A stretch of DNA of 64,000 bases, taken from the NCBI GenBank assembly GCA_030530865.1, contig JAUMUC010000002.1, positions 1-64,000 of the forward strand, in the 5' to 3' direction. Both the position numbers and the translations under genes were made by a program. The notes under the pieces were generated by a model that was not told the DNA's origin, did not search any database, and saw nothing but the letters and a program-made list of their open reading frames with translations. The stretch is from Lactobacillus sp. Its GTDB lineage: Bacteria > Bacillota > Bacilli > Lactobacillales > Lactobacillaceae. Positions 3,797 to 63,322 of the stretch are shown here, piece after piece; within the stretch, counting starts at the first letter, position 1, and the number at the start of each line of letters is the position of its first letter.

Positions 3797-3829
3797 AAAG
3801 ACAATCAATTAAGTTTGGTTGTCTTTTTT
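3797..3829 (+). terminator. Terminator-like hairpin just ahead of the next gene
   Basis: A 10-bp stem (3797-3806 with 3817-3826, including one G-T pair) and a T run to 3829. It ends only about 20 bases before the ATG at 3849, so it either terminates the upstream gene or lies within the leader of the downstream surface-protein gene. Confidence 0.75.
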
Positions 3830-3848
3830 ATTTTTAGAAAGGAAAAAC

Positions 3849-5978
3849 ATGAAATTTAATTCAAAGAAGTTAAGAAATCTGGCAGTTGTCGGTTTGTTAG
3901 GTACTTCTATGAGCATGGGTGTCTTGAACACCTTAGTTACTACAACACATGTAGTACATGCCGATGCTGACAAGGGTGACGCTCCAATTAGCACCATGCC
4001 TAAATATATCAACAACAAGGGCTATACTATTCCTGGTAAATACGGTACTAGCATAAGAGTTACTGATGAAACTAAGATTATTCCGTTTAGTGGAAATAAT
4101 GGTGATTGGGCTAAAGCTACTTCACATACAGACCATATTCCAGGGTCTAACAAAGATGCCACTTACCACTGGTATGCCTTTGATGTTAGTGATAACAAGA
4201 GTAAAAAGGGAACGATTGGTGTAAAGTACACTAATGTTGGTTCTTATAATGGTCACAAGTTAGATTTAAAGATTACTGCATTAGATTGGGATATTGATTC
4301 TTACTATTATGCAGATATTGATGATGACGGTGATAAGGAAAAACAAGAATTACAACGTCCATTTATTGCCTTTTCAGGAACAAATGATTTAAATAACTTT
4401 GCAATTTTTACCCCAGGTACTGGTAGAGTTAAGTATCGGATCGATTATCTAGATCATGATACTGGTGATCCAATTAAGATTACTGGTCAAAATACCTTCA
4501 ACGATATTGATGGTAATCAATGGGTTGGTTTAGATTCATCTACTTTTAATGGACTTGATCAAATCTCTGTAGGTGATGTTAAGACTGGTGATTCATGGCT
4601 TTCATACAAAAAGATTGCAGGTGTCAATTACATTTATTCTGATGCAAATCAACATAATACTGATATAGGTGGTAATGGTACTTTAACTTCTGATGACGGT
4701 CGTGGTTCATTTACTACAATGTTTAGTGATAAATCATCTTTAACTTTTGATTGGGCTTATGGTATTACTACTGGTAAACATGCACCAGAAGATCAAACTG
4801 AAGTTGAAAAGAAATTAAAGAAGATTATGGTAGGTAACTATGATCCAGATGCCGATAAGAATACAATTGATACCAAATCATTAAATTCTATTAGCCCAAT
4901 GGTCTTTAATCACGCATTCTTAACTTTCTCAGGTCCATTGCCAAATGATATGACCCCGCAAGCACCTAAGAAATATGTTTCAGATAGTGATGAAGGTACT
5001 AATGTACCTACAGAAATTGGTGAAAAGTCAGTAACTTCAGATACCTTGAAAGATCGTAATGAAACCTTCCATTATCAAATTACTGATGATGTACCACTTT
5101 TAGATGGTAAATTCTTCTGGGATAGTTATGAAATTACCGACCAATTGGATAAGATCTTGGATGCCGATAATGTGCATGTGTATGATAATTCTGGTAAGGA
5201 CGTAACTTATAAGTTCCATACAAGTATTAGTTCTGGAAACAGATTGAAAATTTCAGCTGATTTAGAATACTTAAACACATTAGATTTCTATAATCAAACG
5301 TATAGAGTGACATTTGATGCCAGAATCAAGGACGGTGCCAGTTTGGAAGATTACAGAGATCCAAAGCATGCGGATCAATATGTAATTCCAAACGATAAGG
5401 CAACCGTTTCAACAAATACAGGATCAGCAGATTCCAATGGAACAAAGACCTATGTCAAGGCAACAAATACCAGTATTCATAAGACCGTTTCATATGATGG
5501 AAATGGCAATGATGAAAAGTTGACTGGTATTCCATTTGGTAAGGAATTTACTTATAGAGTAGATGTTTCAACAAGTGACAATGATAAGGTTGATCATTTA
5601 GAAATTTCTGATCAATTGGAAAAGGTGCTCAACTTGGGCGAAGTTCATGTTTATGATTCAAACGGTAATGATGTCACTGATCAAGGTAACTTGGATCGAA
5701 ATGAAGACTCAAAGAGTGTCCACTGGACTGCAAAGGATCCAAATCACTGGGCTGGTAAGTCTTTGTCAATGAAGATCAAAGCTAATATCATGAATACACC
5801 AGATTTAGCTAAGTACTTGACTAACGGAATTTCAGAAATTCCAAACACGGCAAACTTTAACTTGAATGGTAAGGATCACCCATCAAATAAGGTAATCGTA
5901 AGCCCAGAAACAGTGAAGTCAGATATTACAAAGTTTATTGAAGTAATTCCAAATGGAACGGAAAACTGTGATCCTTAG
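3849..5978 (+). CDS. Fimbrial/adhesin-like surface protein with isopeptide-type repeats, no cell-wall anchor
   Basis: 709 residues. I chose the ATG at 3849 because AGAAAGGA lies 7 bases upstream and a typical signal peptide follows (KKLRNLAVVGLLGTSMSMGV, cleavage near VHA-DA). An upstream in-frame TTG at 3819 has no ribosome binding site. Residues about 40-370 form a large Ca-site-like, Asp/Gly-rich head domain. Two tandem repeats follow (about 385-540 and 545-690). Each runs KSVTSD or KTVSYD, then FHYQI or FTYRV, then EI(T/S)DQL(D/E)K, then VHVYD, as in isopeptide-forming fimbrial backbone domains. The protein stops after the second repeat (ending TENCDP) without LPxTG, a membrane tail or SLAP domains. 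It may be secreted or may be a truncated form of a longer adhesin. Confidence 0.8.
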   Translation: MKFNSKKLRNLAVVGLLGTSMSMGVLNTLVTTTHVVHADADKGDAPISTMPKYINNKGYTIPGKYGTSIRVTDETKIIPFSGNNGDWAKATSHTDHIPGSNKDATYHWYAFDVSDNKSKKGTIGVKYTNVGSYNGHKLDLKITALDWDIDSYYYADIDDDGDKEKQELQRPFIAFSGTNDLNNFAIFTPGTGRVKYRIDYLDHDTGDPIKITGQNTFNDIDGNQWVGLDSSTFNGLDQISVGDVKTGDSWLSYKKIAGVNYIYSDANQHNTDIGGNGTLTSDDGRGSFTTMFSDKSSLTFDWAYGITTGKHAPEDQTEVEKKLKKIMVGNYDPDADKNTIDTKSLNSISPMVFNHAFLTFSGPLPNDMTPQAPKKYVSDSDEGTNVPTEIGEKSVTSDTLKDRNETFHYQITDDVPLLDGKFFWDSYEITDQLDKILDADNVHVYDNSGKDVTYKFHTSISSGNRLKISADLEYLNTLDFYNQTYRVTFDARIKDGASLEDYRDPKHADQYVIPNDKATVSTNTGSADSNGTKTYVKATNTSIHKTVSYDGNGNDEKLTGIPFGKEFTYRVDVSTSDNDKVDHLEISDQLEKVLNLGEVHVYDSNGNDVTDQGNLDRNEDSKSVHWTAKDPNHWAGKSLSMKIKANIMNTPDLAKYLTNGISEIPNTANFNLNGKDHPSNKVIVSPETVKSDITKFIEVIPNGTENCDP

Positions 5979-6086: not shown

Positions 6087-6160
6087 TATAATGGGCTTTT
6101 TTAGTTTTTAAAAAATTATATTGATAAAATTAGTGCTTAATGATAATCTATCTTAAAAAG

Positions 6161-6340
6161 AAAGCACGATGGAGGAGAGCAACATGAAAAAGCAAATCAT
6201 CTTAAATGCTCAATCACCTTCCTCAGTCTCTAATAACTTTGAGACTGAGTGATTTCGTGTGCTTTAATAATTATCGACTAACTATCGGGCAGACTAAATC
6301 ATTTGGTTTTATCCATTTGATTAGTAGGTCCGATTTTTTT
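6161..6340 (+). promoter_or_regulatory. Candidate transcription attenuator of the amino acid permease
   Basis: Hairpin 1:2 has CTCAGTCTC (6222-6230) pairing with GAGACTGAG (6241-6249), extended by AATCA (6212-6216) with TGATT (6250-6254). Terminator 3:4 has ATCGGGC (6284-6290) with GTCCGAT (6328-6334), plus inner ACTA/TAGT, ATCA/TGAT and TGG/CCA helices, then seven T residues (6334-6340). The alternative 2:3 pairing is 6241-6255 with 6296-6310: 15 contiguous pairs, five of them G-U, which would disrupt the terminator. An outer helix AAAGCACG (6161-6168) with CGT..GCTTT (6256-6265) may enclose the leader ORF. There is no T-box sequence. Confidence 0.65.
6184..6252 (+). CDS. 22-residue leader peptide with a serine-codon cluster
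   Basis: A short ORF (MKKQIILNAQSPSSVSNNFE plus TE) has an ideal GGAGGAG ribosome binding site at 6171-6177, six bases before the ATG. Four of six consecutive codons, 6214-6231, encode serine (TCA CCT TCC TCA GTC TCT). The coding sequence ends inside a strong hairpin, and a terminator lies 32 bases further on, just before a permease gene. That arrangement is typical of ribosome-controlled attenuation, and I infer this peptide is a sensor rather than a functional product. A longer out-of-frame ORF over the same DNA has no ribosome binding site. Confidence 0.65.
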   Translation: MKKQIILNAQSPSSVSNNFETE

Positions 6341-6363
6341 ATAAAAAGAATGGGGGAGTTGCA

Positions 6364-7680
6364 ATGGAAAAACAGCCTCAAGATGAATTGAAACGTTCAC
6401 TTGGTTTCTGGTCAGCTTTTTCAATTGTGATTGGGACAATTATTGGTTCAGGAATATTTTTTAAGCAAGGTTCAGTGCTAGATAGTGCAGGATCGTCAAG
6501 TTTAGCTATTGCAGCTTGGGTGTTTGGTGGCTTGATTACGTTGACTGGTGGGTTGACGATTGCTGAAATTGGTTCACAGATGCCATATACTGGTGGTTTG
6601 TACGTTTATATTGAAAATATTTATGGGCGAATTGCTGGATTTTTGGCGGGGTGGATGCAAGTAATTGTCTATGGACCAGCTATTACGGCGTCGGTTGCTG
6701 GATTTATGAGCATCTTGATGGCCAATTTCTTTGGACTTAGTGATGCATGGAGATTGCCGTTGGCATGTATTACGCTTCTAGCAATTGGTGCTATGAATCT
6801 GTTTGAAAATAAGGTAGGTGCAGCATTTTCTGTAATTACGACAATTGGTAAAATGATTCCAATTATCGCGATTATCGTTTTTGGATTATGCTTTGGACAA
6901 GAAAATGCCTTTGGACAAACAGTTTCTGAAGTTCATCGTGCGACTGGTGGCTTTGGTGTGGCTGTGTTAGCAACTTTATTTGGTTATGATGGCTGGATTT
7001 TAATTGCTAACTTAGGTGGAGAAATGAAAAATCCCCAAAAGTTATTGCCTAAAGCAATTATCGTGGGAATTTCTGCCGTGCTGGTGATTTATACGTTGAT
7101 TACTGTGGGAATTCTCAAATTCATGCCAGTTGAATTGATCCATGCTAAGGGTGATCAGGCGACTGCTTATATGGCAATGAAGGCGTTTGGTAGAATTGGT
7201 GGTAAGCTGTTGTCTGCTGGAATTATCATTTCCATGATGGGAACTTTGAATGGAAAATTAATTACTTTCCCTAGAATTGTTTATGCGATGGCTAAAAGAG
7301 GCGATTTGCCATTTTCAAAATTCTTGTCATTTGTGACACCTAAAGGAAAAGCTCCCGTGGTTGCAACTTTATTTATTAGTTGTTTAGCAATGATTATGAT
7401 GGTCTTGTTTGATCCGGATCACTTGTCTGACTTATGTGTGTTCACGGTTTATATTTTCTACTTGCTGGCATTTATTGGTATCTTTATTTTGCGTCGTCAG
7501 CATTCAAAACGGCCATTCAGTACACCGCTATATCCAATTGTGCCAATTATTGCCATTCTTGGTGGATTATTCGTCTTAGTTAGTGAAGTGATGAATGATC
7601 CTGCTGGAGTTATTCTGTTTATCGGTGTTGTGATTGTTGGCCTACCTATTCTTTATCTAGTTAAAAAAGTAAATAAATAA
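6364..7680 (+). CDS. APC-superfamily amino acid permease, LAT/SteT type (putative Ser/Thr exchanger)
   Basis: 438 residues with about 12 transmembrane helices. The N-terminal motif GTIIGSGIFFKQGSV is the unwound TM1 substrate site of APC transporters. TM3/TM6 contain GWMQVIVYGPA and GYDGW, the latter typical of L-type amino acid transporter relatives such as Bacillus SteT, a serine/threonine exchanger. The start is set by GGGGGAG at 6352-6358, five bases before the ATG. A leader peptide rich in serine codons and a conditional terminator lie immediately upstream, which suggests control by seryl-tRNA or serine supply. Family assignment is firm; serine/threonine specificity is inferred from resemblance plus the leader. 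Confidence 0.85.
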   Translation: MEKQPQDELKRSLGFWSAFSIVIGTIIGSGIFFKQGSVLDSAGSSSLAIAAWVFGGLITLTGGLTIAEIGSQMPYTGGLYVYIENIYGRIAGFLAGWMQVIVYGPAITASVAGFMSILMANFFGLSDAWRLPLACITLLAIGAMNLFENKVGAAFSVITTIGKMIPIIAIIVFGLCFGQENAFGQTVSEVHRATGGFGVAVLATLFGYDGWILIANLGGEMKNPQKLLPKAIIVGISAVLVIYTLITVGILKFMPVELIHAKGDQATAYMAMKAFGRIGGKLLSAGIIISMMGTLNGKLITFPRIVYAMAKRGDLPFSKFLSFVTPKGKAPVVATLFISCLAMIMMVLFDPDHLSDLCVFTVYIFYLLAFIGIFILRRQHSKRPFSTPLYPIVPIIAILGGLFVLVSEVMNDPAGVILFIGVVIVGLPILYLVKKVNK

Positions 7681-53045: not shown

Positions 53046-53220
53046 CATAAAAAAAGCCTATGCAAACAGATTGCATAGGGACGATTACTCGCGGTTCCAC
53101 CCTAATTCAGGAATAAGTCCTGCACTTAATTAAAGCTGACTAGGGGTGCCTTTTCCCAGATGCCCTTTCACCGCACGGCATTCGCTAGACTGGTACTTTT
53201 TCCTTCCCCATCTTCATCAA
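53046..53220 (-). promoter_or_regulatory. Glycine T-box riboswitch controlling glyQS
   Basis: The minus strand carries the T-box sequence AGGGTGGAACCGCG (complement of 53091-53104). A terminator stem follows (AGCCTATGCAA, 53055-53065, with TTGCATAGG, 53071-53079), then T residues. Upstream lies a short stem I region with a GGC followed by A at 53162-53164 as the likely glycine specifier. Uncharged tRNA-Gly should favour the antiterminator. An extended -10 (TGTTATAAT) at 53228-53233 suggests transcription starts near 53221. Confidence 0.9.
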
Positions 53221-63114: not shown

Positions 63115-63322
63115 TTTCGAATAAAAAAGCGCCACTTGAACTATGTCAAGGGCGCAAACTGCACGGTACCACCTTATTAAATCCTACGATTAACGCTCGC
63201 GAAACGGGATAACTCTGAAGGTGTCACGGATCTAAATCTGGTATCTTTTCACCTAACCGATACTCTCTGAAGCAGATTATTAATCCTCATTTCTTCGTCT
63301 TTGTTATCTTGTGGTTTAAATA
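63115..63322 (-). promoter_or_regulatory. T-box riboswitch controlling hisS-aspS
   Basis: The minus strand carries the T-box AAGGTGGTACCGTG (complement of 63161-63174), followed by a GC-rich terminator stem (AGCGCCACTTGA, 63128-63139, with TCAAGGGCGC) and T residues. Stem I features are seen around AGAGAGTATCGG and GGTGAAAAGATACC. In the specifier region the minus strand reads CGTGACACC, which contains both GAC (Asp) and CAC (His). Either or both could be the specifier codon, matching the two genes controlled. Confidence 0.88.

Follow-up and report, generated by a model that had tools for sequence, protein, structure and literature searches.

The gene for a putative serine-type permease in Lactobacillus sp. 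is very probably preceded by a ribosome-mediated transcription attenuator, which would sense seryl-tRNA through the codons of a short leader open reading frame (ORF). The leader lies in a 64,000-nucleotide stretch of assembly GCA_030530865.1 (contig JAUMUC010000002.1, positions 1 to 64,000), here referred to as the window, and all coordinates are those of its + strand unless marked otherwise. At the level of sequence, the comparisons described below demonstrate the anatomy of this leader, its conservation, compensatory changes in its pairing, and a match between leader codons and permease type across paralogs.

The permease gene and its leader ORF

The gene downstream of the leader (6364-7680) encodes a 438-amino-acid permease of the APC superfamily that is LAT/SteT-like (Pfam PF13520, 9.4e-60). 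Its best NCBIfam match was TIGR00911, an L-type transporter (1.2e-58), which, like all 20 NCBIfam matches, scored under the curated cutoff. The nearest solved structures were 9h76 (7e-88) and 6f2g (7.7e-88, about 8e-88), both of which we take to be BasC, an Ala-Ser-Cys exchanger. The structure search listed 6F2W with the same sequence as 6f2g, and 6F2W is the structure named in the report on BasC as an Ala-Ser-Cys exchanger (PMC6472337). The protein thus resembles the LAT and SteT/BasC carriers (PF13520, 6f2g), and from this similarity, we infer that serine would be a substrate.

Upstream of this gene is a predicted ORF of 22 codons, MKKQIILNAQSPSSVSNNFETE, which runs from an ATG at 6184 to a TGA at 6250-6252 and is preceded by the Shine-Dalgarno sequence GGAGGAG (6171-6177; duplex with the anti-Shine-Dalgarno sequence, −9.3 kcal/mol). 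The start at 6184 was chosen because it is the one preceded by the Shine-Dalgarno sequence; a longer version starting at 6169 is present in the ORF list. The regulatory codons (6214-6231) read TCA CCT TCC TCA GTC TCT, with the Ser codons starting at 6214, 6220, 6223, and 6229. Both the 22-codon ORF with its ideal ribosome binding site and the four Ser codons in six had been described in the first-pass annotation of this DNA, and both were read again here. A putative promoter, weak in the window, is located at 6121-6149 (TTGATA, a 17-nt spacer, and TAATCT with an upstream TG); in many relatives, the corresponding stretch is TTGCnn ... TGGTATTCTAA or a similar sequence.

Alternative structures of the leader RNA

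Segment 1 (6220-6230), which the regulatory Ser codons overlap, forms the 5' arm of hairpin 1:2, with a predicted energy of −15.6 kcal/mol and a core in which 6220-6230 pairs with 6241-6252. The hairpin had initially been drawn as 6212-6230 with 6241-6254; its core was recovered, while the extension through 6212-6219 was absent from the fold. Segment 2 (6241-6255) contains the sequence GAGTGAT and the TGA of the leader ORF, and can pair either with segment 1 or with segment 3 (6296-6310), which itself lies inside the 5' half and loop of the terminator. The proposed helix 2:3 was found as described, with 15 of 15 positions paired and five G-U pairs, and the antiterminator built on it (6240-6311) folded at −22.6 kcal/mol. 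The intrinsic terminator 3:4 (6284-6340), also part of the initial reading, folded at −22.4 kcal/mol (6284-6334), ends in a T-run (6334-6340), and has a stem that covaries among relatives. A strict consensus scan flagged neither this terminator nor a promoter on the + strand of the window, and both assignments therefore rest on folding and conservation.

A fold of 6158-6268 (−30.7 kcal/mol) additionally revealed an outer stem, P0, that encloses the ORF. Its 5' strand (6161-6174) consists of 6161-6167, paired with 6259-6265, and 6169-6174, which continues into the Shine-Dalgarno sequence and pairs with 6253-6258; in the window, the 3' strand (6256-6265) also lengthens the antiterminator. The entire leader was more stable than 200 of 200 dinucleotide shuffles (z, −3.6), and the z-scores of the single helices against 100 shuffles were −4.4 for 1:2, −3.2 for 2:3, and −3.3 for the terminator. 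The antiterminator and the terminator are almost equal in energy in the window. Among the 25 leaders folded, the terminator was the more stable structure in the other 24, and the switch there must therefore depend on the order of synthesis.

No match at the Rfam gathering score was obtained for the window leader, and none of the low-scoring matches at an E value of ≤10 was a T-box. A T-box or other known Rfam RNA at this position was rejected, as there was no covariance-model match for RF00230; the earlier statement that there is no T-box here was thus right by Rfam search, and T-boxes are present elsewhere in the same genome, including one before serS.

Covariation and strand-exchange tests

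RNAalifold predicted 18 pairs from 30 aligned leaders, located in hairpin 1:2 and the base of the terminator, and 12 of these had pair-keeping changes on both sides; in the terminator base, all eight predicted pairs had changed on both sides. Hairpin 1:2 and the terminator outperformed 100 shuffles in 30/30 leaders, with z-scores of −2.0 or lower. When the 2:3 duplex alone was compared with shuffles, z was −3 or lower in 6/30 leaders, −2 or lower in 10/30, and about 0 in L021 and L023.

Since segment 3 changes register among clades, we used an exchange test, in which the energies of own strand pairs are compared with those of swapped strands over 5000 permutations. This was applied to 19 leaders with <80% similarity, chosen from 31, and it ignores phylogeny. 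The own pairs were equaled by 0/5000 permutations for hairpin 1:2, by 1/5000 for helix 2:3, and by 0/5000 for the outer stem. When the partner was the fold-defined 5' arm of the terminator, the count was 0/5000 both for segment 2 and for segment 2 lengthened by the outer-stem 3' strand (the extended antiterminator); for the latter strand by itself, it was 327/5000, which is not significant. Covariation across relatives had been suggested at the outset as a check, and compensatory change in RNAalifold and the exchange tests supports both alternative helices. Folding and exchange tests also indicate in silico that helix 2:3 excludes the terminator 3:4.

It could be argued that the same sensor acts mainly on translation, either by sequestering and freeing the permease ribosome binding site or through reinitiation. 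The Shine-Dalgarno sequence of the permease (6352-6358) sits ~11 nt past the T-run, and in the minimum-energy fold, ~6353-6361 pairs weakly with ~6275-6283. However, a T-run follows the hairpin, covariation is seen in the stem, and the permease Shine-Dalgarno sequence lies outside this structure. We consider such a translational output very improbable; fold and covariation point to an intrinsic terminator ahead of the permease.

Conservation of the serine leader

A scan of relatives for the window permease provided 49 homologous loci. In 29 of these, as in the window, a short predicted ORF with its own Shine-Dalgarno sequence is present upstream of the permease; it is rich in Ser, lies ~170 to 215 nt upstream, and is followed by similar hairpins. 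All but one of the 29 loci (L025) carry Lactobacillus or Limosilactobacillus titles. The contig of L025 is titled as a Bacteroides sp. metagenome-assembled genome and has a Lactobacillus-type permease with a Ser leader; it is probably mislabeled or misbinned. Three of the 49 loci, from Weissella, have an Asn/Asp-rich ORF, and the ORF and upstream scan found no leader in the remaining 17. Among 80 further family loci, which overlap the 49, Ser leaders were present in 26/31 loci of genera g1 and g6 and in 0/49 loci of other genera (G005, at a contig edge, and a second match in G378 were left out of the g1/g6 set). The 17 loci without a leader, together with the patchy occurrence of the permease in g1 (see below), mean that this type of control is lineage restricted.

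The orthologous leaders contain five to nine Ser residues each, ranging up to MFILHTMQFSSSSSSSSS, and the window leader, with four, is the poorest in Ser of those counted. To score residue runs, we required at least 4 of 7 residues to be the same in 116 Shine-Dalgarno-preceded ORFs of 12 to 40 amino acids, taken from 162 upstream regions (the window, both locus sets, and g19). By this rule, Ser runs were found in 57 ORFs, Asn runs in 12, Asp runs in 2, and Phe and Thr runs in 1 each. The 57 Ser-run ORFs represent 40 distinct peptides, one of them from the Weissella Thr/Ser group described below, and use 224 TCN and 38 AGY codons. Because Ser is written with both codon families over 40 distinct peptides, selection seems to act on the amino acid itself, beyond RNA pairing alone. 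The GAGTGAT of segment 2 is nearly invariant in the 30 aligned leaders, and the ORF ends 2, 6, or 11 nt after the start of this sequence in 30/30 (allowed range, −10 to +30). A chance ORF was rejected on the basis of the conserved ORF and hairpins, the strand-exchange test, and the Ser-run codon counts.

When 397 family genomes were searched with a covariance model of the 5' domain, which was built from Ser leaders and hence leans toward Ser, 28 places in 24 genomes matched, all of g1 and g6. The model missed three Ser leaders that the ORF scan had found (L079, L082, and L083). The orthologous SteT-like permease follows 24 of the 28 matches, each of which has a Ser-rich ORF, and the other four have a Thr/Ser-run ORF. 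Hairpins kept without the ORF or its Ser codons, which the first-pass annotation had named as evidence against its own reading, were therefore not seen at SteT-like loci (24/24 Ser-rich) with this Ser-built model.

The strong, conserved structure without an Rfam family might also suggest an undescribed riboswitch or a protein-binding leader in which the ORF is incidental. We find this extremely improbable, as the Shine-Dalgarno sequence, the Ser stretch with its TCN and AGY codons, and the position of the stop are kept, whereas the N-terminal part of the peptide varies. Furthermore, other paralogs have different codon runs ahead of a similar set of hairpins.

Related leaders and T-boxes at other permeases

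The four remaining matches of the covariance model were weak (E values of 1e-4 to 9e-4, all in g6) and precede a ThrP-like permease. At L213, the one of these four loci that was scanned, the permease had ThrP, a bifunctional Thr/Ser transporter, as its best NCBIfam match, under the cutoff, and the leader before the ThrP-like permease reads LTSTSTTTT. A search of 201 genomes gave a ThrP-like match in 134, and 19 of the best 30 loci (L220-L249) had a Thr-run leader; these span seven genera (g5, g6, g9, g14, g19, g23, and g25). The 11 of the best 30 without one include all five loci of g1. The Thr-run leaders are an independent candidate for leader-peptide attenuation. It is of note that the ThrP-like genes of four g16 genomes (G053, G159, G111, and G135) each contain a single in-frame TAG within the region that matched.

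In g19 (Weissella), a paralog of the window permease (L147-L161 among its loci) has an Asn-run leader, which is Asp/Asn rich in two loci, in a total of 13/22 loci, and these Asn leaders suggest that the substrate has shifted. A second g19 paralog has Thr/Ser leaders (TSSDST and variants) in 9 to 10 of 10 loci (L169-L178, of which L177 is doubtful; 10 of the 13 listed), and only 1 of these 10 satisfies the 4-of-7 rule for a single residue. The exchange test was not significant in these side groups (Thr, 310/5000; Asn, 3349/5000; Thr/Ser, 878/5000; partial Thr runs, 470/5000 and 1520/5000), and the case there therefore rests on the ORF, the codon run, and the terminator. No Ser, Thr, or Asn run was found before the other permease paralogs of the window genome at L002-L004 and L215-L218 (the start of L003 is poorly placed, L005 is identical to L215, and L006 was left out).

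T-boxes occupy the corresponding position in genus g27, where one immediately precedes the permease homolog in 8/8 loci (L179-L186; 8 of 10 g27 genomes with a match). All of these T-boxes score under the Rfam gathering score. Read by hand, their specifier is GCC in six and ACC in two, and their UGGA bulge is that of the thrS T-box in the window genome; we presume that this bulge does not suit Ala. Two tandem T-box matches were observed at L180 and L182.

These relatives also bear on whether the leader could be an attenuator that responds to translation stress in general or to antibiotics, like those of erm and ABC-F genes, with the Ser codons as incidental slow spots and serine not the signal. 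A 22-codon leader with a terminator would suit either reading, and antibiotic-responsive leaders are known in Firmicutes (erm, vmlR, and msrD). Nonetheless, the codons track the permease: SteT-like permeases have Ser, ThrP-like ones Thr, and the two paralogs of Weissella Asn or Thr/Ser; moreover, the target is a transporter, not a resistance gene. We therefore think a stress or antibiotic signal very unlikely. Seryl-tRNA sensing agrees with a codon run for the amino acid of the downstream gene, that amino acid being assigned by the similarity of the permease alone.

Taken together, these leaders probably represent one modular type of leader-peptide attenuator that precedes amino acid permeases in the Lactobacillaceae. 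In this class, the codon run (Ser, Thr, Thr/Ser, or Asn) would reprogram the sensed residue while the architecture is kept, would report the physiological substrate, and would swap with T-boxes at homologous genes.

Host genome and origin of the locus

The host genome (1.06 Mb, 82% complete) belongs to g1 and has 11 T-box matches at an E value of ≤1e-3, one of them above the Rfam cutoff. Four downstream genes were scanned, and serS, thrS, and asnA were assigned above curated cutoffs. As a T-box before serS and a Ser leader before the permease occur in the same genome, seryl-tRNA charging would be sensed twice. Two T-box matches under the Rfam gathering score are located in the window itself, at 63145-63310 (−) and 53074-53217 (−), and are followed by ORFs that we take to be hisS and glyQ, respectively.

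In a phylogenetic tree, the window permease nests within the Limosilactobacillus clade as a sister to L007 (support, 100/97), and at the threshold used, the permease was present in only 9/24 other g1 genomes sampled. Because the permease groups with Limosilactobacillus while its host is of another genus, in which the gene is patchy, this suggests that the permease and its leader moved horizontally between genera. A plasmid copy of the locus was rejected, since the plasmid collection had no near match. Two features were observed upstream of the leader: a perfect 17-base inverted repeat (6035-6051/6068-6084), located between the terminator-like hairpin of the upstream gene and the leader, and, at 3819-5978, a gene for a fimbrial or antigen-like protein (RrgB_K2N isopeptide domain and AgI_II_C2) that has no obvious sortase motif at its end and may be truncated.

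Discussion

The conserved Ser ORF, the hairpins, and their compensatory pairing support the trp-type logic of pause, antiterminator, and terminator that the first reading had proposed. In the following model, ribosome stalling, the serine response, and the substrate of the permease are what we infer. As RNA polymerase makes the leader, a ribosome would load on the short ORF. With ample seryl-tRNA(Ser), it would pass the Ser codons, reach the stop in segment 2, and mask this segment, so that segment 3 would pair with segment 4 and transcription would end before the permease gene. When seryl-tRNA is scarce, the ribosome would stall at the Ser codons and mask segment 1, thereby releasing segment 2; this would then form the antiterminator with segment 3 (in the window, the 3' strand of P0 lengthens the helix), and in the absence of a terminator the permease gene would be transcribed. 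If the ORF is not translated, segment 2 would stay sequestered by P0 and hairpin 1:2, leaving the switch off by default.

In the trp, his, thr, leu, and phe attenuators of Proteobacteria, segment 1 of a translated leader carries codons for the amino acid of the pathway, the pairings 1:2, 2:3, and 3:4 are mutually exclusive, and an intrinsic terminator is present. The window leader has in common with them the cognate (here, Ser) codons in segment 1, the exclusive helices, and the terminator. It differs in that the amino acid is Ser, the target is a permease, the host is a lactobacillus that uses T-boxes, and an outer stem surrounds the ORF and its Shine-Dalgarno sequence. T-boxes, which bind tRNA directly, are the usual sensors of tRNA charging in lactobacilli. 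The T-box (RF00230) resembles the proposed function of the window leader as a sensor of tRNA charging with a terminator/antiterminator output, but the window leader contains none.

Leader peptides have been described in other Firmicutes. According to a report on the ilv-leu operon of S. aureus, this operon has a leucine-rich attenuator peptide that is backed by mutants and reporters (PMC5794164). By analogy, this indicates that leader-peptide control can work in a Firmicute. As in the window, transcription attenuation there involves a leader peptide; unlike in the window, it uses Leu codons and controls a branched-chain biosynthesis operon, and the two are likened here by mechanism. His leader peptides before hisS* and hisZ in bacilli were presented, to the knowledge of their authors, as the first regular examples from beyond Proteobacteria and Actinobacteria (PMC2965389), and further His leaders were described before the his operons of the Bacillus cereus group, Eubacteriales, and Erysipelotrichales in a paper which also reports that his genes in Lactobacillales are most commonly controlled by T-boxes (PMC9413887). 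For His, both papers agree on the T-box as the usual sensor. These His leaders resemble that of the window in being predicted regular leader peptides in Firmicutes that use T-boxes, and they differ in their amino acid, histidine, and in preceding synthetase or biosynthesis genes. Finally, Ser (TCN) codons in sinR of Bacillus subtilis act as a sensor of growth conditions, for which AGY codons reportedly cannot replace TCN (PMC3862929). In both sinR and the window leader, Ser codons would report changed growth conditions; however, the sinR sensor lies within a coding gene, acts at the protein level, and uses TCN only, while the Ser leaders use TCN and AGY. Among the records listed by searches of open-licence PMC literature only, none described a comparable leader for Ser, Thr, or Asn in lactobacilli. 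Judged from sequence, the finding is best read as a Ser variant of known ribosome-mediated attenuation, and it now extends beyond the single leader to a set of permease attenuators at the level of the family.

One report describes runaway transcription, in which RNA polymerase moves ahead of the ribosomes, in some species, with assays in B. subtilis (PMC13323073). If true of lactobacilli, this would weaken the leader-peptide mechanism. The modular class, if true, conversely implies that transcription and translation are tightly coupled on leaders in a Firmicute lineage, and the leader would be a natural reporter of whether ribosomes keep pace with RNA polymerase in lactobacilli. If our reading is correct, these cells would have, in the conserved Ser leader and its relatives for Thr and Asn, a second means of sensing tRNA charging, and the codon run would offer a guide, readable from sequence, to what the permeases of lactobacilli transport.
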